A stretch of DNA of 50,973 bases from Chloroflexota bacterium (lineage in GTDB: Bacteria > Chloroflexota > Dormibacteria > CF-121): NCBI GenBank assembly GCA_005881175.1, contig VBEN01000009.1, positions 1 to 50,973 of the forward strand. The letters are read 5' to 3'. The notes beneath the pieces were generated by a model that saw only the letters and a program-made list of their open reading frames with translations, searched no databases and was not told the origin of the DNA. The translations under genes and the position numbers were made by a program. Positions 2,132-50,973 of the stretch are shown here, piece by piece (positions within the stretch are counted from its first letter, which is position 1; each line of letters opens with the position of its first letter).

Positions 2132-3187
2132 TTAGCCGGTGGCGCGAAGCGCGGCGGTCGACGGCTCTACGAACAGCCGGCGGATAGCCCCAACGGCGTA
2201 ATCGACGTCTTCAGAGGTGACGCCTCGATGGGTGACCATGCGCCATCGATAAGCTGATGCCTGGTCGAGCAAGACGCCCACCGTGCGGCAGCGATCGATG
2301 AAGTGACGCGCGGTAACGGGCGGACGGCACTCACCAAAGACCATATTGGTTTCGACCCTGCCGATATCCACATTGATGCCTGATAGTCCCTGCAGACCTT
2401 CGGCTAGACGCCTGGCGTTGGCATGGTCCTCGGTCAGCCGATCGACCATCTCGGTGAGCGCGCACAGCCCGGCCGCGGCCAGAACGCCCGCCTGGCGCAT
2501 ACCGCCGCCCACCATCTTGCGCATGCGGCGAGCGCGCTCGATGAAATCGACCGACCCGGCCAGCATGGAGCCGACCGGCGCGCTCAATCCCTTGGAGAGG
2601 CAGAACATCACGGAATCCACCGGGGCAGTGAGCTCCCGGACGTCGACCCGCTGGGCGACGGCGGCATTGAAGACGCGGGCGCCATCCAGATGGACCTTCA
2701 AGCCGGCCTGGTGGGCCACCGCGCAGAGCGCCGCGGTCTGGTTTGGGCTCAGACAGGTGCCGCCCTTGCGATTGTGGGTGTTCTCCAGGCAGAGCAGCGC
2801 ACTGCGTGGCTCGTGGATATCCGGTTCTCGGATAGCCCCTAAAACCTGCTCCGGTTGGAGCCGGCCGCTCTCGCTGTCCAGGGGGCGCAGTTGCAGCCCG
2901 CCGACCACGGCAGCGCCGGCCACCTCGTTCTGAAAAATATGGCTGTCGATCTCCACGATCACTTCGTCCCCTGCCCGGGCATGGCTCAGCAGGGCGCAGA
3001 GATTGCCCATCGTCCCACTGGGGACGAACAGCGAAGCCTCCATGCCAACCATCTCGGCGGCCCGATCCTGCAGGCGATGGATGGTAGGGTCCTCGTCCCA
3101 AACGTCGTCGCCCACCTCCGCGATGGCCATTGCCTTCCGCATCGATTCGGTAGGCAGCGTGAAGGTATCACTCCGCAGCTCGACCAT
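2132..3187 (-). CDS. ltaE: Low-specificity L-threonine aldolase
   Basis: PLP-dependent cleavage of L-threonine/L-allo-threonine to glycine and acetaldehyde, in the cytosol. The 351-residue length is normal for the beta-eliminating lyase family. It opens with the family's usual 'ELRSDTFTLPT', has 'LDGARVFNA' near residue 168 (cofactor-binding aspartate) and the PLP lysine at about K199 in 'CLSKGLSAPVGS'. The ATG at 3187 is preceded by GGTGA; an in-frame TTG at 3199 is the alternative. It begins 18 bases after the downstream DUF881 gene stops, so it is probably the last gene of a three-gene minus-strand unit. No functional link to the DUF881 genes is evident. Confidence 0.93.
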   Translation of the reverse strand: MVELRSDTFTLPTESMRKAMAIAEVGDDVWDEDPTIHRLQDRAAEMVGMEASLFVPSGTMGNLCALLSHARAGDEVIVEIDSHIFQNEVAGAAVVGGLQLRPLDSESGRLQPEQVLGAIREPDIHEPRSALLCLENTHNRKGGTCLSPNQTAALCAVAHQAGLKVHLDGARVFNAAVAQRVDVRELTAPVDSVMFCLSKGLSAPVGSMLAGSVDFIERARRMRKMVGGGMRQAGVLAAAGLCALTEMVDRLTEDHANARRLAEGLQGLSGINVDIGRVETNMVFGECRPPVTARHFIDRCRTVGVLLDQASAYRWRMVTHRGVTSEDVDYAVGAIRRLFVEPSTAALRATG

Positions 3188-3205
3188 GCGCGTCACCAAC
3201 CGAGT

Positions 3206-3889
3206 TTACCGGCCGAGCTGTGCATAGATCAGGGGACGAGCGCTGATGACCTCGGTAATGGCCAGGTCGGATTTGCGCTGAATGTCGACCTGCAGCCGGG
3301 TCTGCAGGCTGCTGGCCGACAGATCCGCCGCCGGCTCCAGCTGCTCCGGGTCTCCGATCACCAACAACACCAGTGGTGCGCTGACGGCATGCCCGCCGAT
3401 CATCAGGGTGTTGCCGCGGCTCGCAATCGGAGTGCTGCTGATCATGCGACTGCCATTGAGCGCGAACGCCTCGCCCCCGGCAGACCGAAGGCTGTTCAGT
3501 AAGTCCTGCAGCTCAAAGTCCATGATCGGCCCCAGGATCCGTATCTGCAGTCCCGGGCCATGAACGGGAACGGCGCCGGTCACCTCGCGCAGCGTCTGGA
3601 GCTCCTTTGAGATCGCCTGCGCGTCGGCCCCACCGGCCAACAGGGCCTGGCGCAGCTGGGTTTCCTGCTGCGAAAGCGCCGCGGCTTGCTGAATGAGCTG
3701 ATTGTTGGCCCGGTTCAGGTCATTGATGAGGAGCGCCACGCTCGTGTTGTCCTGGGACGCCAGCGTGCGCGCCACCGCGGCCTGCGAGCGCAGCTGCACT
3801 ACCACGAGGAAACCAAGGGCCAGGCCGATCAGGCTCACGATGAGGACCCGCTGAAAACGTGCGGTCCGGTCAGCCGAGTGGTTGAGCAC
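3206..3889 (-). CDS. DUF881 family membrane-anchored protein (second copy)
   Basis: A 227-residue protein with one N-terminal transmembrane segment (about residues 14-32), a coiled-coil-like Gln/Leu/Ala-rich region (about 50-90) and a C-terminal DUF881 domain carrying the usual 'VHGPGLQIRI' and 'ALNGSRMISSTPI' elements. Members of this family are found mainly in Gram-positive and related bacteria, often in tandem pairs near division or sporulation genes; their molecular role is not established. It overlaps the start of its paralogue by 20 bases, indicating co-translation. The start is ATG. The family assignment is strong; no function is claimed. Confidence 0.85.
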   Translation of the reverse strand: MLNHSADRTARFQRVLIVSLIGLALGFLVVVQLRSQAAVARTLASQDNTSVALLINDLNRANNQLIQQAAALSQQETQLRQALLAGGADAQAISKELQTLREVTGAVPVHGPGLQIRILGPIMDFELQDLLNSLRSAGGEAFALNGSRMISSTPIASRGNTLMIGGHAVSAPLVLLVIGDPEQLEPAADLSASSLQTRLQVDIQRKSDLAITEVISARPLIYAQLGR

Positions 3890-45433: not shown

Positions 45434-45577
45434 CAGATTTTTTCGCGCTTATCCCCACGAGCTCCGTTTCCTGAGCGAGTTCTCATAAACGCTTCGTGGC
45501 AGCCATAAGTTACGCCGCTTTTCAACAGGTCGCGGTTTCGTACCAATCTCTGCCGTCGCCGCGTTGTGAGGGCAGCG

Positions 45578-46372
45578 ATGAAGATCACAAGGATCGGAGC
45601 GATCATCAGCGGCATCGCCCTCGGCACCGCAACTGGTGCGGCGCTTCAGCTCAACGCGGTCAGCGCGTCGGGCGCGAGCCACAACCTGCCGCTGGTGGCC
45701 CCGACCGCGATCGGGAGTCCCGCCCCCAGCCCTTCTCATAGCCCCGGATGCCCGGCAATCAAGCTCGCCCTTGCTTTCACCAGCAATGTGGTCGATACCT
45801 CCACGCTCGATCTACATCTTCCGTGGGGTCAGCCGGGCGATCCAGAGGGACAAATGGTTGAGGATTACGGCGCCTACAACGGCACTACGATCCGAAAGCA
45901 CCTGCCGGTGCACGACGTGACGACAGGGTCGCTAGTGGAGCTGTCCGGTCACAACGCCATCGACATCGTGCTCGACAGTGGGACGCCGCTGCATGCCGTG
46001 ACCTCGGGGACCGCATACCGGATTACGAACTGGACGATTCCGGGCTTTCCGCAGGGTTGGGCATCCGTAGTGGTGTCTGATGTCCTCAAGGACGACCAGG
46101 GCGATCCGATTGCGTTCCTGTACGGCCACGTCCGCGAGTTTGATGCTCAGAATGGGCAGCACGTCGAAGCGGGCGCCTTGCTTGCCAAGAGCGGCGGGGA
46201 CCCGGATGATCCGGGCGCCGGCTTCAGTGACATGGCGAACGTCCATTTTGAGGTGGTCGAGTCCCAGCATCCGTTAGCGGCCCACGCGGGTACGGTCAAT
46301 CCACATCAGTTCCTCGTGAACCTCTACGACCACGCCGCGCACGCGCCGCTGGGTTGCGCGCCCACGCAATAG
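45578..46372 (+). CDS. Secreted M23-like peptidase-fold protein, possibly inactive
   Basis: A 264-residue exported protein with an N-terminal hydrophobic signal (about 5-30), a Ser/Pro linker, and an M23-type domain. The first zinc motif is 'GHNAIDIV' (H and D retained) and 'YGHVREF' is present. The second motif, normally HxH, reads 'NVHFEV': the first histidine, which serves in catalysis, is Asn. It may be inactive, bind without cutting, or use another residue. The ATG at 45578 follows GAGGG. It lies beside an L,D-transpeptidase gene on the same strand (128-base gap), consistent with a wall-related job. Confidence 0.75.
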   Translation: MKITRIGAIISGIALGTATGAALQLNAVSASGASHNLPLVAPTAIGSPAPSPSHSPGCPAIKLALAFTSNVVDTSTLDLHLPWGQPGDPEGQMVEDYGAYNGTTIRKHLPVHDVTTGSLVELSGHNAIDIVLDSGTPLHAVTSGTAYRITNWTIPGFPQGWASVVVSDVLKDDQGDPIAFLYGHVREFDAQNGQHVEAGALLAKSGGDPDDPGAGFSDMANVHFEVVESQHPLAAHAGTVNPHQFLVNLYDHAAHAPLGCAPTQ

Positions 46373-46499: not shown

Positions 46500-47156
46500 A
46501 TGACCAAGCGAACCATGATCCGGGTTGGATCAACGGTCAGTGTCTTTATTCTCTTCGGACTCATCGGGGGCATTTTTCTCAACACGCTGTTGACCAGCGC
46601 GGCCAACTCACCGATGGTGGCTCCAGTTTCGACTCCGAGCACCGACGCGACCTCTGAGCCGACAACAACCCCGGTCGCAGACCCGACACCATCCGAGGCC
46701 GCGACGCTAACACCCACGGTCCCCCCGGTCGTGGCGACGCCCACACCGGCGCCGACCCCTGCCGCTCAGGGCAAGCTAATCGTGGTTACCCTGGCGACGC
46801 AGAGCCTGACGGCCTACGAGAACGGCAAGGTCGTCGCGACAACCGTGGTGGCAACCGGTAGGCCGGCTCTGCCAACGCTCACCGGTACCTTCCACATCAA
46901 GGCCAAATACACGCCTTATCAGTTCATCTCGCCCTGGCCGAAGAGCAGCCCCTACTGGTATGCCAGCGCCTGGGTGAAATACGCGATGCTCTACCAGGAC
47001 GGCGGATACTTCATCCACGACGCGCCCTGGCGCACGGTGTACGGTCCCGGCGCCAACCTGACGAATGGAACGCACGGGTGCGTCAACGTACCGCTCAACA
47101 CCATGACCTTCCTCTACAAGTGGGCCGGAGTCGGTACGACCGTCATCGTGCAGTAA
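46500..47156 (+). CDS. L,D-transpeptidase (YkuD domain), membrane-anchored
   Basis: Forms 3-3 peptidoglycan cross-links or attaches proteins to the wall. It has 218 residues: a short basic N-terminus, a transmembrane helix (about 12-32), a Thr/Pro linker (about 40-90), then a YkuD domain. The domain starts at 'KLIVVTLATQSLTAYENGK' and ends with the catalytic 'HGCVNVP' motif; an upstream 'YFIHDAPW' supplies the other histidine. The ATG at 46500 is preceded by AGGAAGGGAG. Complete and probably active, with the catalytic domain outside the membrane. Confidence 0.9.
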   Translation: MTKRTMIRVGSTVSVFILFGLIGGIFLNTLLTSAANSPMVAPVSTPSTDATSEPTTTPVADPTPSEAATLTPTVPPVVATPTPAPTPAAQGKLIVVTLATQSLTAYENGKVVATTVVATGRPALPTLTGTFHIKAKYTPYQFISPWPKSSPYWYASAWVKYAMLYQDGGYFIHDAPWRTVYGPGANLTNGTHGCVNVPLNTMTFLYKWAGVGTTVIVQ

Positions 47157-47168
47157 CCCGTCAGGGAC

Positions 47169-48281
47169 TCAGGCGGCGGCTTGGGTCAGGGCAGACGCCT
47201 GGCGGACTTGCCGAAGCGGTAACGCAGCCAGGCTCACAAGCCAGCCACACAGCGCGGCGAGGGTGATCAGCGGAAATATTGGGGCCACGTAAATTGGGAC
47301 GTAGACCATGAACGTGATGGCGTGTTGCCATCTCGGAGGATTTGTCCGAAGGATCAGCCAGCCCGCTAACACGGGCGCCGAGAGGTCGTAGAAGTTGATG
47401 TAGGGGCTGATCAGCATGCTGGCCACCAGCCCAACGGCGATCGGAATTGACGAATCTCCCGGGCGGGCGCGCCTGATCACCCAAACCGAGACGGCGAGGA
47501 CGAGGAGGATGCCGATCACCGCGGCTGGCAATGGCAGCTGACGTCCAAATGAAATCTGGACGGGCCCGGGAATGCCTTGAACGTCCGCCAGCGATTGCAT
47601 GACGTTGTGGAAAACCGAGGTCCCGACCACGAGCAGGCTGACGGCGGCGAGCATGACCGTCACTCCCAGCCAGCCGACAAAGACACGCCAGTAGCCGGCA
47701 AGTAGCAGCGCGACTGGCACGAGAAAGGCCGCCTGTGGCTTTAGAAATACCGCCGCCAGGGCGATGCCGGCCAGCCAGGGACGGTCGCGCCGCATCAGCC
47801 ACCATGTCACCGCCACTGCGGCCACGATGATCAGGCTCGCCTGGCCGATCATGAAGCTGACAAACACGGGTAGGAGTGTGGCGGCGGCCAGGCCGTGGGC
47901 GACCTTTAATATCCGCGCCCCGGGCGCAACGAGGTGCCAGGCAACCGCGAACGCCCCAGCCAGGATCCCACTCCAGATGACTGCGGCCACGGCGTAAGTC
48001 AGCCAGCTCAAGGGCAGCACCAGCCAGGCCAGGGCGGGCGGGTTCAGATAGGGCAAGGGACGGCCAACGGCGCTCGTCACGGCTGGCAAGAACACTGAAG
48101 GGTCATACATCGCGGCCCATCCATGGGCCTGCCCCATCTGCGCCGCGAGGTAGTAGACGAAGAAATCGGGGAGGGCGACGCGGTACCGTAGCGTGTCCAA
48201 CCACTGCAGGTCGAGGAACGCGAGGACCGCGGCGGCTGCGATTGCGAATAGGAGCAGGTGGCTGCGGCTGAATGCCTTCAC
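47169..48281 (-). CDS. GT87-like polyprenol-dependent glycosyltransferase (DUF2029)
   Basis: A 370-residue protein with about nine to ten hydrophobic helices. The first loop contains 'VALPDFFVYYLAAQMGQAHG', and 'PLPYLNPPALAWLVLPLSWL' follows; both are typical of the GT-C fold GT87/DUF2029 family, whose PimE members are mannosyltransferases using a polyprenyl-phosphate sugar. Sugar and acceptor are unknown here. ATG start overlaps the stop of the upstream CPBP gene (ATGA), so the two are co-expressed. Confidence 0.8.
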   Translation of the reverse strand: MKAFSRSHLLLFAIAAAAVLAFLDLQWLDTLRYRVALPDFFVYYLAAQMGQAHGWAAMYDPSVFLPAVTSAVGRPLPYLNPPALAWLVLPLSWLTYAVAAVIWSGILAGAFAVAWHLVAPGARILKVAHGLAAATLLPVFVSFMIGQASLIIVAAVAVTWWLMRRDRPWLAGIALAAVFLKPQAAFLVPVALLLAGYWRVFVGWLGVTVMLAAVSLLVVGTSVFHNVMQSLADVQGIPGPVQISFGRQLPLPAAVIGILLVLAVSVWVIRRARPGDSSIPIAVGLVASMLISPYINFYDLSAPVLAGWLILRTNPPRWQHAITFMVYVPIYVAPIFPLITLAALCGWLVSLAALPLRQVRQASALTQAAA

Positions 48282-49141
48282 GCCACGCCCTCCAACGCAA
48301 AGACGCCGCCAGAATGTCGCGGCCGGATGAGGAAGAGTCCGAGTCCGGCCAGGCCGAGATTGACCGCGGTGTCGACGAGGAAGCCGGGGAGCGTTGGCGC
48401 AACCGGGGATGCGTGCCCAAAGGCCAGGATCAAGATGAAATCGTAGGCGGCGTGAATCGCGATCACCGGCCAGATGGTGTTCATTCGCAAGCGGGCCGCC
48501 GCGAACAAGACGCCGATCAACGCCGCCTCGAACATCTGATACACGACACCAAGCTCATCGGCGCCAGGCAGGAAGAGATTGTCGACATGGCTGAGCCCGA
48601 AAAGGAGCGAGCAGATCAGGACGCGCGAAAGCGCCGGGTACCGCGCAAGCGCCTCCAGGACGAGCCCGCGATAGGTTGCCTCCTCCATGAAGACGTCGAC
48701 CAGCATGAAAACAATCTGGAGGGCCAGCACAAGAGCGATCGTCGGCATGAACCCACGAGCCGACAGGCCGACAATTGGTAGCGCAAGGGTGGCGACGAGC
48801 GGAACAGCCAGGTGCGGCGCACGCCAGGCGCCCGGCCAGGTGAAGCCGGCCCGTCGCCACCAACCCAGGCGTGTCAGGATGAAGGTGACGAACAGGGCTG
48901 GGACCAGCACGAGCCCAAACGGCATGATGTACTGCCACCGGCTGGAGGTGCCCGCAGCGACCAGGCCGCGGATCGCCACCAGGGTGCCGGTCTGCGCGAT
49001 GAAAAGTGCGAGCGCAAAGCCGAGCCCACCGCGACGCGGTTGCCTGAAGAGGAGCACCCCGGCGGTCGCAACGATGAGACCGATGCTGATCTTGACTAGC
49101 CAGTCCAGGCCCGGAAGGAAGTGCGGCGCGACTAGGCCCAT
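48278..49141 (-). CDS. CPBP-family intramembrane metalloprotease
   Basis: A 287-residue membrane protein with about eight helices. It carries the CPBP/ABI (Rce1-like) motifs in order: 'EEATYRG' (EExxxR), 'FGLSHVDN' (FxxxH) and 'AIHAAYDF' (HxxxD). Such proteins cleave or bind membrane-anchored substrates; in bacteria targets are mostly unknown. It lies first in a two-gene unit with the GT87-like enzyme. The ATG at 49141 has no strong Shine-Dalgarno. Confidence 0.85.
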   Translation of the reverse strand: MGLVAPHFLPGLDWLVKISIGLIVATAGVLLFRQPRRGGLGFALALFIAQTGTLVAIRGLVAAGTSSRWQYIMPFGLVLVPALFVTFILTRLGWWRRAGFTWPGAWRAPHLAVPLVATLALPIVGLSARGFMPTIALVLALQIVFMLVDVFMEEATYRGLVLEALARYPALSRVLICSLLFGLSHVDNLFLPGADELGVVYQMFEAALIGVLFAAARLRMNTIWPVIAIHAAYDFILILAFGHASPVAPTLPGFLVDTAVNLGLAGLGLFLIRPRHSGGVFALEGVA

Positions 49142-49218
49142 CGCCCCTATGACGGCGGCGACGACGGCTGCCTGCGATCATCAGGCGGTCGAAATGGAGA
49201 CGAGACCAGGGGCGAGCG

Positions 49219-49335
49219 CTACTCTCGGGCCGGCTCCTTGGTCGGTTCCGGCCAGGACGGCTCTTCCACCGGCTGGGGCGCCGTCTCCGGCTCCTCGACG
49301 ATCTTGACCGTACGGATTTCGCGCCCTAAGTTCAT
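49219..49335 (-). CDS. 38-residue proline/glutamate-rich small protein
   Basis: Begins with ATG immediately after the stop of the upstream gene (TAAATG), with GGAGGGAG about 6 bases before the ATG, which is a strong initiation site. The product starts 'MNLGREIRTVKIVEEPE' and continues as a Pro/Glu repeat-like tail (EEPSWPEP, TKEPARE). No signal or membrane segment. It looks like the small acidic tail peptides encoded beside hypothetical genes in some actinobacteria, but this is from memory, not a search. Function unknown. Confidence 0.6.
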   Translation of the reverse strand: MNLGREIRTVKIVEEPETAPQPVEEPSWPEPTKEPARE

Positions 49336-49977
49336 TTACGCTCCCTCCACGAAATCTCCCGCTGCGCGCATCAGGTCGGGAAGCTCCGTCAACGACACGA
49401 CCGGTACCTGATATTTCTTGGCCAGGGCTTCGACGGTCGCCTCGCTGAGCACCCTTTGGCTCCTAACCTTCGTCCTGCCGAAAAAGCCGATCGAGGTTCG
49501 CTCAGGTATTTCGTCGGAGAAGGCCACGATGCGGGCAAACTGCGCCCGCCAGCCTCGCTGGTGAATCCGTACGGTTCCGCTGCCCGCCACACCTGTGAGG
49601 ACGAACTGGTCATCTGGAATGGCGAAGCGGCGAGTCCATTGCAGCCTCGCAGCACGCTGCACGCTCTGCACCCTCGACACCCATTGGAGCTCGCCAAGGT
49701 CGTGGCAGGCATACAGGCCACACCCGCATCCCGCCGCGGGCGCCTCATGGACTGGATTGCCGAAACCGCTCAGAGGACCGCAGCAGACGGCGATATTCCT
49801 TCCAGGCTCCCAGAAGTATGTCCGGGGACCGAGGCCCGTCAGCGCCAGGCTGCGCCTATTACCGATGAAGTGAATCCGATTAACCCGGAAGCCGACAACC
49901 GGGCGGGTCTGTGCGGATCCGGCCGCTGCGCGCAACTCTGGAAAGACCGTCCCCCAGACGTCCGGATCGAGCTGCAT
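49336..49977 (-). CDS. Hypothetical protein with a CGCGLYA motif
   Basis: A 213-residue protein without membrane segments. A central 'EAPAAGCGCGLYACHDLGEL' segment, then 'VLTGVAGSGTVRIHQRGWRAQFA', recalls actinobacterial hypothetical proteins with a short Cys-x-Cys-Gly-[IL]-Tyr-Ala motif and a 'GWRA' motif. The C-terminus has a helical 'ATVEALAKKYQVPVVSLTELPDLM'. ATG at 49977 is placed by AGGAGG; a TTG at 49986 sits too close to it. It is directly followed by the 38-residue ORF and so probably co-expressed. The two cysteines could bind metal, but this is unproved. Confidence 0.65.
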   Translation of the reverse strand: MQLDPDVWGTVFPELRAAAGSAQTRPVVGFRVNRIHFIGNRRSLALTGLGPRTYFWEPGRNIAVCCGPLSGFGNPVHEAPAAGCGCGLYACHDLGELQWVSRVQSVQRAARLQWTRRFAIPDDQFVLTGVAGSGTVRIHQRGWRAQFARIVAFSDEIPERTSIGFFGRTKVRSQRVLSEATVEALAKKYQVPVVSLTELPDLMRAAGDFVEGA

Positions 49978-50005
49978 CAGCCGCAACCTCCTGGATTTGC
50001 TGGCC

Positions 50006-50048
50006 TGGTAGGGGCGGAGAGGATCGAACTCTCGACACCCTAGTTAAA
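50006..50048 (-). other. 3' fragment of a tRNA-Lys-like gene (attachment-site remnant)
   Basis: On the minus strand this gives a canonical tRNA 3' half: anticodon TTT followed by AA, anticodon-stem 3' strand CTAGG, variable GTGTC, T arm GAGAG-TTCGATC-CTCTC, acceptor strand CGCCCCT, discriminator A and CCA. Position 33 is C instead of the invariant T, so identity ends at the anticodon. The 5' half (a strand beginning AGGGGCG) is not found to the right in the window. Not a functional tRNA. This is the form left at one end of an element that integrates into a tRNA 3' end; the inserted DNA should be on the right. Confidence 0.75.
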
Positions 50049-50080
50049 GGTAGCAGGGCTTGAGCGCTGTAGCCGGAACC

Positions 50081-50641
50081 TTATGGAATGAAGGAAGGGC
50101 CACACGTAAAGGCCCCGACATTGTTGAGAGTCGGTGCACCAGCCGCGACCATTCGCGCAGCTAACGAGCCGCTCTCTTCGTCCGCCTTGATAGTCAGGCT
50201 TGATGCGCCATTGCGATTCTCAGTCGATAGAGATGATCCTGATTTCGGCAGGAAGTTGAGAAAGTCCATCGAAGGGTAGCCATTTGGAGCGGCCTCCATC
50301 AGAGGATCGGGCGTGGCACTGGTGCCGTGATTTGCGAGAGGCTCTGGTTGGTGGTAGAAGGAGCGATAGGTGTCCGCTCCGTGATACGGATAGGCGTTGA
50401 GCCGCAGGAAGTAGGGCTTGCCGTTAAGGATCCCCTCCAAGAACAGCGAAGTATCGGTAAATTCCCGTTCCCGCCCCGCTCGCATGCCAACCTCTCCGGT
50501 TTGCTGGCCCCCGCTCACGGCCCCGGAAAAAACCATGGTGCCAGGTTCGACTGGGCCGGATGGGACGGTGGGGGTGGAAGTAATGGATCCACAGCCGACC
50601 AAGGCGAAGGCCGCCAGACAACAAACCAGACCCGCGCGCAT
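50081..50641 (-). CDS. Putative lipoprotein of unknown function
   Basis: About 186 residues. The N-terminus is a type II signal peptide with lipobox 'LVGC' near residue 18, followed by a Thr/Pro/Ser-rich spacer. The rest ('GKPYFLRLNAYPYHGADTYRS', 'SLTIKADEESGSLAARM') looks like an all-beta domain of the kind that ends with a composition check 'SGSLxAxM', often seen in small secreted proteins. Base composition looks lower in GC than the operons to the left, and it lies on the element side of the tRNA fragment. Start ATG at 50641; GTG at 50650 possible. Confidence 0.65.
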   Translation of the reverse strand: MRAGLVCCLAAFALVGCGSITSTPTVPSGPVEPGTMVFSGAVSGGQQTGEVGMRAGREREFTDTSLFLEGILNGKPYFLRLNAYPYHGADTYRSFYHQPEPLANHGTSATPDPLMEAAPNGYPSMDFLNFLPKSGSSLSTENRNGASSLTIKADEESGSLAARMVAAGAPTLNNVGAFTCGPSFIP

Positions 50642-50722
50642 CTCTGCCACTATGTAACGGGCGATCCGTCGAAGCCCCGAGTTTGGCTGGCCAAGCGAAA
50701 CCGCCGCAGTTATGGTGTCCCT

Positions 50723-50973
50723 TCAACCGGTACTTTCAGCGATTTTCGTCGTCTCTGATGATTCCGCGTGTCTGAGTCGTTCGAAGCCGTCCAGGAGTAG
50801 ATCCAGGGCGAACTCGAACTCGAACTGATCGTCGCAACCCGGACCGACGACCGACTCGCCTTCGTGGGAGGCCGCCCCGGCGATCTCCACTACGTAGGGA
50901 TACTTCCCTGCCAACTCGCGGAGCATGATCGCCTGCATTTCCGGATCGACAGTTCGTGAGTCATTGAAGAGTT
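50723..50973 (-). CDS. TetR-type transcriptional regulator, C-terminal part (cut by window end)
   Basis: The frame is open to the right edge of the window, so the 5' part lies outside. The visible ~82 residues include 'LRELAGKYPYVVEIA' and 'DQFEFEFALDLLLDGFERLR'. This matches the ligand-binding C-terminal domain of tetracycline-repressor-like proteins, where the 'FEFGLDLLLDG' helix ends the fold. The DNA-binding half is not visible. Its regulated gene cannot be named. Confidence 0.6.
   Translation of the reverse strand, partial: LFNDSRTVDPEMQAIMLRELAGKYPYVVEIAGAASHEGESVVGPGCDDQFEFEFALDLLLDGFERLRHAESSETTKIAESTG

Follow-up and report, generated by a model that had tools for sequence, protein, structure and literature searches.

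A displaced tRNA-Lys 3' end as the probable outer boundary of a tandem cassette array in a Chloroflexota genome

The window, that is the whole stretch of 50,973 nucleotides analyzed here (contig C199 of the ~2.9-Mb genome G000), carries close to its right end a piece of tRNA-Lys that belongs to no complete tRNA gene. The question raised by this locus is how the piece came to lie there and what kind of DNA it bounds. An earlier note, made from the sequence alone, had read it as the scar left by a tRNA-targeting integrase at the edge of a single integrated element.

The displaced tRNA end and its intact source gene

On the minus strand, positions 50006-50048 read TTTAACTAGGGTGTCGAGAGTTCGATCCTCTCCGCCCCTACCA. 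T arm, acceptor strand and CCA are present and the 5' half is missing, just as the note had described (Table 1). ARAGORN called no tRNA in the window, Rfam gave no match within 49000-50973, scar included, and no tRNA 5' half was detected in the window. Upon genome-wide search, the sole other copy in G000 was found in an intact tRNA-Lys(ttt) gene (G000:C110:1052-1123, minus strand), the single tRNA-Lys(UUU) gene of this genome. The exact match extends over 33 nt, which excludes chance in 2.9 Mb. Lys(CTT) tRNA was rejected as the source, as its T arm differs. Beyond the match, two mismatches at 50042-50043 (CT versus GC) are followed by TTTAA, which is again identical, so that the match tapers off over the 3' anticodon stem and loop. 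The 3' part thus matches as claimed, whereas identity is not lost exactly in the anticodon loop, as had been stated, but gradually. In the sister junctions of relatives, identity is full from CTTTTAAGC on. The intact gene ends with CCCCTAATCC and has no encoded CCA; its presence in the scar and absence from the gene fit a tRNA 3' end that was replaced by inserted DNA. Displacement by site-specific insertion is the best explanation for the fragment.

The displaced end is preceded by DNA that is not tRNA-like. The junction constitutes a ~108-bp att site, in which a non-tRNA arm of ~65 bp (CACCATAACTG...GCTACAGCGC(A/T)CAAGCCC) is joined to the 3' end of the tRNA, the tRNA part starting at the anticodon loop. 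Alignment of nine full att sites over 108 bp revealed 43 invariant arm columns; the arm motif model rests on these nine sites, which stem partly from related species. When viral contigs were searched, one arm pattern gave 0 matches and the other 3, which by our estimate is about what chance would yield.

Table 1. Features around the displaced tRNA-Lys end (positions in the window)
Feature	Position	Strand	Evidence or remark
M23 peptidase gene; conserved flank of the array starts here	45566-46372	+	Pfam M23; protein search
Variable flank: L,D-transpeptidase, GT87 and CPBP (Rce1-like) protease genes	46500-49141		Shared with G007
216-aa ORF, first gene beyond the scar; same place in G007	49336-49986	-	Flank 92-94% identical to G007
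Encoded CCA on the displaced tRNA end	50006-50008	-	Sequence; intact tRNA-Lys gene without CCA
tRNA-Lys(UUU) 3' part: end of anticodon stem, variable loop, T arm, 3' acceptor strand, discriminator base	50009-50041	-	33-nt exact match to G000:C110:1052-1084
Right-hand att site: conserved arm, inner half (GGCTACAGCGCTCAAGCCCTGCTACC), joined to tRNA tail	50009-50074	-	nhmmer, relatives' att model positions 42-108, E 1.5e-17; arm model 50046-50074, E 5.8e-5
189-aa lipoprotein-like ORF between the two broken arms	50081-50650	-	Homolog in G010 at 85%; no Pfam match
Outer half of second att arm (CACCATAACTGCGGCGGTTTCGCTTGGCCAGCCAAACTCGGGGCT), end of TetR cassette, tRNA tail lost	50670-50717	-	nhmmer E 2.1e-10; genome-wide arm search E 5.4e-11
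TetR-family regulator, C-terminal part, end of alcohol dehydrogenase/TetR cassette, cut by contig end	50723-50973	-	98-99% identical to G014 and G004

From the orientation of the fragment, the note had predicted inserted DNA on its right and, at the far end, an intact tRNA-Lys gene ending in the same tail. Both predictions were borne out, the intact gene being located on contig C110, which is joined to the window contig across a gap of ~600 bp by homology to the same-genus genome G014. The window contig ends 925 bp right of the scar, inside the TetR gene, and C110 stops inside an alcohol dehydrogenase gene. In G014, the homologous cassette lies on one contig end and spans both G000 contig ends with 98.8% and 99.0% identity. 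As judged from this overlap, ~600 bp would be missing and the whole insert would measure ~2.6 kb. The full-length G014 counterpart of the TetR gene combines TetR_N and TetR_C_1, and the intact arm region of G014 is 99.0% identical to the region of the outer window arm.

Only two arm matches exist in the whole G000 genome, and both lie in the window. Both are broken at the same GGCT directly before ACAGCGC (50048-50074; 50670-50717), and the array in G000 may consequently be frozen. Another arm, in G004 (L054), is likewise cut just before CTACAGCGC. An integrase HMM scan found no integrase in the window. Elsewhere in G000, on contig C32 (L127), a large serine recombinase ORF lies beside reverse-transcriptase-like ORF fragments that resemble a group II intron.

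All DNA left of 50006 had been taken for ancestral chromosome. This holds for the flank that starts with the M23 peptidase gene, which a protein search recovered from 10 of the 14 other same-genus genomes (once as a fragment) and from G017 of a neighboring genus; the side with this gene and pyrE/pyrD is conserved across the genus. It does not hold for the 3.6 kb nearest the scar, which contain the 216-aa ORF and the CPBP protease, GT87 and L,D-transpeptidase genes. These 3.6 kb are shared with G007 at 94% but partly or wholly replaced in other congeners and, being variable, may themselves be old island DNA. Part of the block with the transpeptidase and GT87 genes is ~70% alike in G014 and G013, and the block is not at the corresponding place in G002, G004 and G005. 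Further arms were not found by nhmmer in the 3.6-kb variable flank.

Tandem arrays in same-genus genomes

The tail search covered 100 relatives, among them the Chloroflexi MAGs CF_94, CF_152 and CF_36, which seem to come from soil depth series; the genus set comprises 15 genomes that are 75-95% complete. All genomes are drafts and arrays break contigs. tRNA-Lys tails stand in a row on the same strand, three per contig in G002, G004 and G014 and two in G007, and the boundaries at tRNA and scar are fully contiguous in G002 and G007. The order behind tRNA-Lys is tRNA, cassette, scar, cassette, scar, flank, with cassettes of 0.95-3.5 kb between the junctions, all of them integrase-less. A complete array is present on a 226-kb contig of G002, where tRNA-Lys is followed by a 3.5-kb cassette with genes for an MmyB-like regulator, two SDRs and a GNAT acetyltransferase, a scar, a 1.5-kb cassette, a second scar, a transporter-like gene and the M23 flank. 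Overall, the cassettes encode SDR, GNAT, MmyB-like, TetR, ADH and cupin proteins. Neither an integrase nor remnants of one were detected by the integrase HMM scan in any array of the genus, the 226-kb contig of G002 included. In the neighboring genus, tRNA-Lys of G017 is followed directly by chromosomal genes and no scar is present; in G015 (G015:C187, L062 position 6961, minus strand) a tRNA-Lys tail is preceded by another sequence that contains a perfect hairpin, CGCCTTTTAGGCG, and ARAGORN gave no tRNA there.

For most pairs, cassettes are 92-99% identical between species, versus 72-88% for the flanks of the same genomes. With identity so far above that of the flanks, the cassettes appear to have moved between species. 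One ADH pair, that of G004 and G011, reaches only 84.5%, so part of the cassette sharing is not recent. The position of the ADH/TetR cassette also changes: in G000, G004 and G011 it comes directly after the tRNA, in G014 it occupies the third place, and in G001 it is inverted. G000 and G007 have the flank beyond the scar in common (92-94%) but carry different cassettes. Insertion has thus occurred repeatedly at one site and with a content that varies between genomes, as in additive flexible genomic islands. As in cis-mobilizable elements (CIMEs), attL and attR are kept in tandem at one target in the relatives (both arms in the window being broken), and the arrays contain no integrase or transfer genes. 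We therefore consider it likely that cassettes have accumulated in tandem behind the only tRNA-Lys(UUU) gene, at its 3' end, and that the fragment is the attR furthest out, the array being CIME-like and served by an integrase in trans.

The arrays could also be decayed relics, that is ordinary integrative elements that lost their own integrases by classic CIME decay and accretion, the cassettes now being immobile and spread by homologous recombination between flanks. This would follow a published model (PMC5704250) and agrees with the broken arms of the window and with the deleted or degraded sites of G001, G004 and G013. However, small cassettes with intact arms are found at 92-99% identity in several species despite much greater divergence of the flanks on either side, cassette positions differ between arrays, and integrase remnants are absent from every genus array scanned. 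We regard decay alone as a rather unlikely account.

Arm-linked integrases in other families and a candidate mechanism

The arm sequence model revealed related arms in other families belonging to the same class, where they adjoin the 3' ends of tRNA-Gln(CTG), Thr-type tRNA, tRNA-Gly(CCC) or mreB. In G066, a 4-kb insert consisting mainly of one gene for a 1255-aa cyclase/ATPase lies between tRNA-Thr and its scar. In these families, tyrosine integrases of ~310 aa adjoin the arm motifs. In G107, an intact tRNA-Gly is followed by arm motif and integrase within 83 bp, and the same motif recurs ~51 kb away, where it precedes a tRNA-Gly tail; both ends of the element are thus marked. The genes of this ~51-kb element include a TrwC relaxase, a TraG/TrwB coupling protein and Tad pilus genes. 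Relatives of the G107 integrase (G064, G030 and others) are mostly located behind tRNA or mreB 3' ends. Comparison of the upstream arm with the arm of element or scar was better than all 1000 shuffles in three elements and not significant in other pairs, including G022 and the mreB case; within the genus, the tRNA-side arm is weak (27-35/1000 shuffles in two genomes, 288/1000 for G000). Nine such integrases group in a single clade (100/100 support), distinct from both Xer and a second tRNA-adjacent integrase family. The clade was not detected in the 15 genus genomes (75-95% complete), and its action at tRNA-Lys is for this reason put forward as a proposal.

Arm or integrase clade were observed at an apparent mreB 3' end (..FMYIR*, TTCATGTATATCCGCTGA) in G064:C106 (L261), G101:C190 (L139/L161) and G064:C98 (L153), so the system would not be confined to tRNA genes. 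The second tyrosine integrase family (~313 aa) lies ~165-250 bp behind intact tRNAs (Gln, Gly, Ala, Arg, Val, Thr) at most of 30 loci class-wide (L196-L225). As the responsible enzyme, this family (G048) was rejected because different sequences are found at the distal ends of its elements and the clade differs. Large serine recombinases were likewise rejected, as they occur in only 3 of the 15 genus genomes and on contigs other than those of the tRNA-Lys and scar loci. Two further rearrangements were seen at tRNA-Gln. In G102:C168 near 3060-3390 (L244/L256), the intact gene is followed within 300 bp by incomplete repeats of its 3' part in both inverted and direct orientation, and in G048:C1, 11990-12090 (L163), an inverted arm is joined to an internal tRNA-Gln piece, as would result from an inversion between att sites.

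Starting from the tRNA fragment and the intact tRNA, the conserved arms, the integrase-free tandem arrays, the similarity of cassettes over that of flanks and the linkage of clade and arm elsewhere, all of which are directly supported, we propose the following mechanism. A cassette would circularize at an att site made of arm and tRNA 3' end, and a tyrosine integrase would integrate this circle at the tRNA or at any tail copy, with strand exchange probably in or near the anticodon stem-loop. At each insertion, the tRNA would gain a new 3' end, and the old end, preceded by the arm of the cassette, would be left at the far side. Repeated insertion would then produce the order tRNA-cassette-scar-cassette-scar-chromosome. 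The likely enzyme, also in the genus studied here, is the ~310-aa arm-linked integrase clade, which would be supplied in trans by larger integrative elements, and cassettes of this kind may be mobile at present.

We consider it improbable that cassette movement is driven instead by the Xer-like recombinase found throughout the genus. This enzyme is the only tyrosine recombinase in several array-bearing genomes, for example G000 and G004, but the arm motifs co-occur with another integrase clade and known Xer-dependent elements use dif sites. Less probable still is the single ordinary genomic island of the earlier note, with its own integrase beside the intact tRNA. An intact tRNA and a displaced 3' fragment in the predicted orientation would suit such an island; however, a zinc-type alcohol dehydrogenase gene and not an integrase comes after the tRNA, and the only tyrosine recombinase of G000, the Xer-like one, is encoded on another contig. 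Moreover, the short insert deduced from the G014 overlap contains two arms. In place of one element, two or more cassettes are stacked here, and the one nearer the tRNA ends in the broken arm at 50670-50717. A true integron, with an integron integrase acting on folded attC sites, would account for tandem integrase-less cassettes of one to few genes with a conserved site at one end, but it is hardly credible here: no integrase (IntI) lies beside the array, the att site folds no better than shuffles on either strand (z -0.4 and -0.1), and it contains a tRNA 3' end. A non-functional partial duplication of tRNA-Lys, or an intron-containing or split tRNA, can be dismissed almost entirely, since the window does hold a 3' half only but an intact, unsplit tRNA-Lys exists and the non-tRNA arm is conserved beside different tRNAs in several families.

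Returning to the array with an integrase in trans, we tentatively extend it to a class-wide cassette system of uncultured Chloroflexi, which is possible though not our firm expectation. In such a system, the 3' end of a tRNA gene or of mreB would serve as platform, minimal cassettes sharing the arm would be stacked in integron-like fashion, and the integrase would come in trans from visiting elements of conjugative type that carry the same arm. If this is true, these soil bacteria stack and exchange single genes in the manner of integrons by tRNA-targeted tyrosine recombination and not by attC hairpins. The arm offers a sequence handle for finding such cassettes, which are usually split across contigs in metagenome assemblies, and an isolated tRNA piece at the end of a contig may signal an array rather than a single island. 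With a candidate integrase clade on offer, the system also tests how minimal a trans-mobilized element can be.

Comparison with known systems

Integrons consist of small cassettes that lack an integrase, carry a site at one end, are stacked at one locus and are exchanged between species. The arrays described here resemble them in all these respects. They differ in that the att site is tRNA-derived, attC-like folding and an adjacent integrase are lacking, and the tRNA gene takes the role of attI.

CIMEs retain att sites, lack genes for integration and transfer, occur in tandem at one target gene and derive from decayed ICEs or IMEs; an example at tRNA-Lys together with an IME has been described (PMC5704250). 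The array elements share with CIMEs the kept att sites, the absence of integration and transfer genes and the tandem arrangement at one target. Unlike CIMEs, the cassettes measure only 0.95-3.5 kb, several stand in each array with the ~65-bp arm in common, and their array position varies across species.

For the additive flexible genomic island of 'Ca. Methylopumilus' at tRNA-Lys(ctt), the reported repeats equal the last 20 bp of the tRNA, and the islands span 330 bp to 42 kb, most having no known function (PMC10872708). In both cases, the 3' end of tRNA-Lys recurs as repeats. A conserved arm and a cognate integrase clade do not figure in the passages considered, and phylum and tRNA differ (PMC10872708). 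Tycheposons, as described there, are cargo elements of 4-200 kb at tRNA genes with tyrosine recombinases, the recombinase gene being characteristic; the cassettes here likewise bring cargo to a tRNA gene but are smaller and lack a recombinase gene (PMC10872708).

Within the same phylum, the ssrA islands of Dehalococcoides target tmRNA and feature the serine recombinase DsiB, a 20-bp repeat and reductive dehalogenase genes (PMC3146451). Like the arrays of the present study, they are placed in tandem behind an RNA gene, with a conserved motif directly ahead of each 3'-end repeat, and some are devoid of an integration module (PMC3146451). In contrast, the target here is tRNA-Lys, and the arrays showed no DsiB-type serine recombinase module. 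What is new in the system described here are the very small cassettes, the arm common to families and targets, and the integrase clade linked to it.
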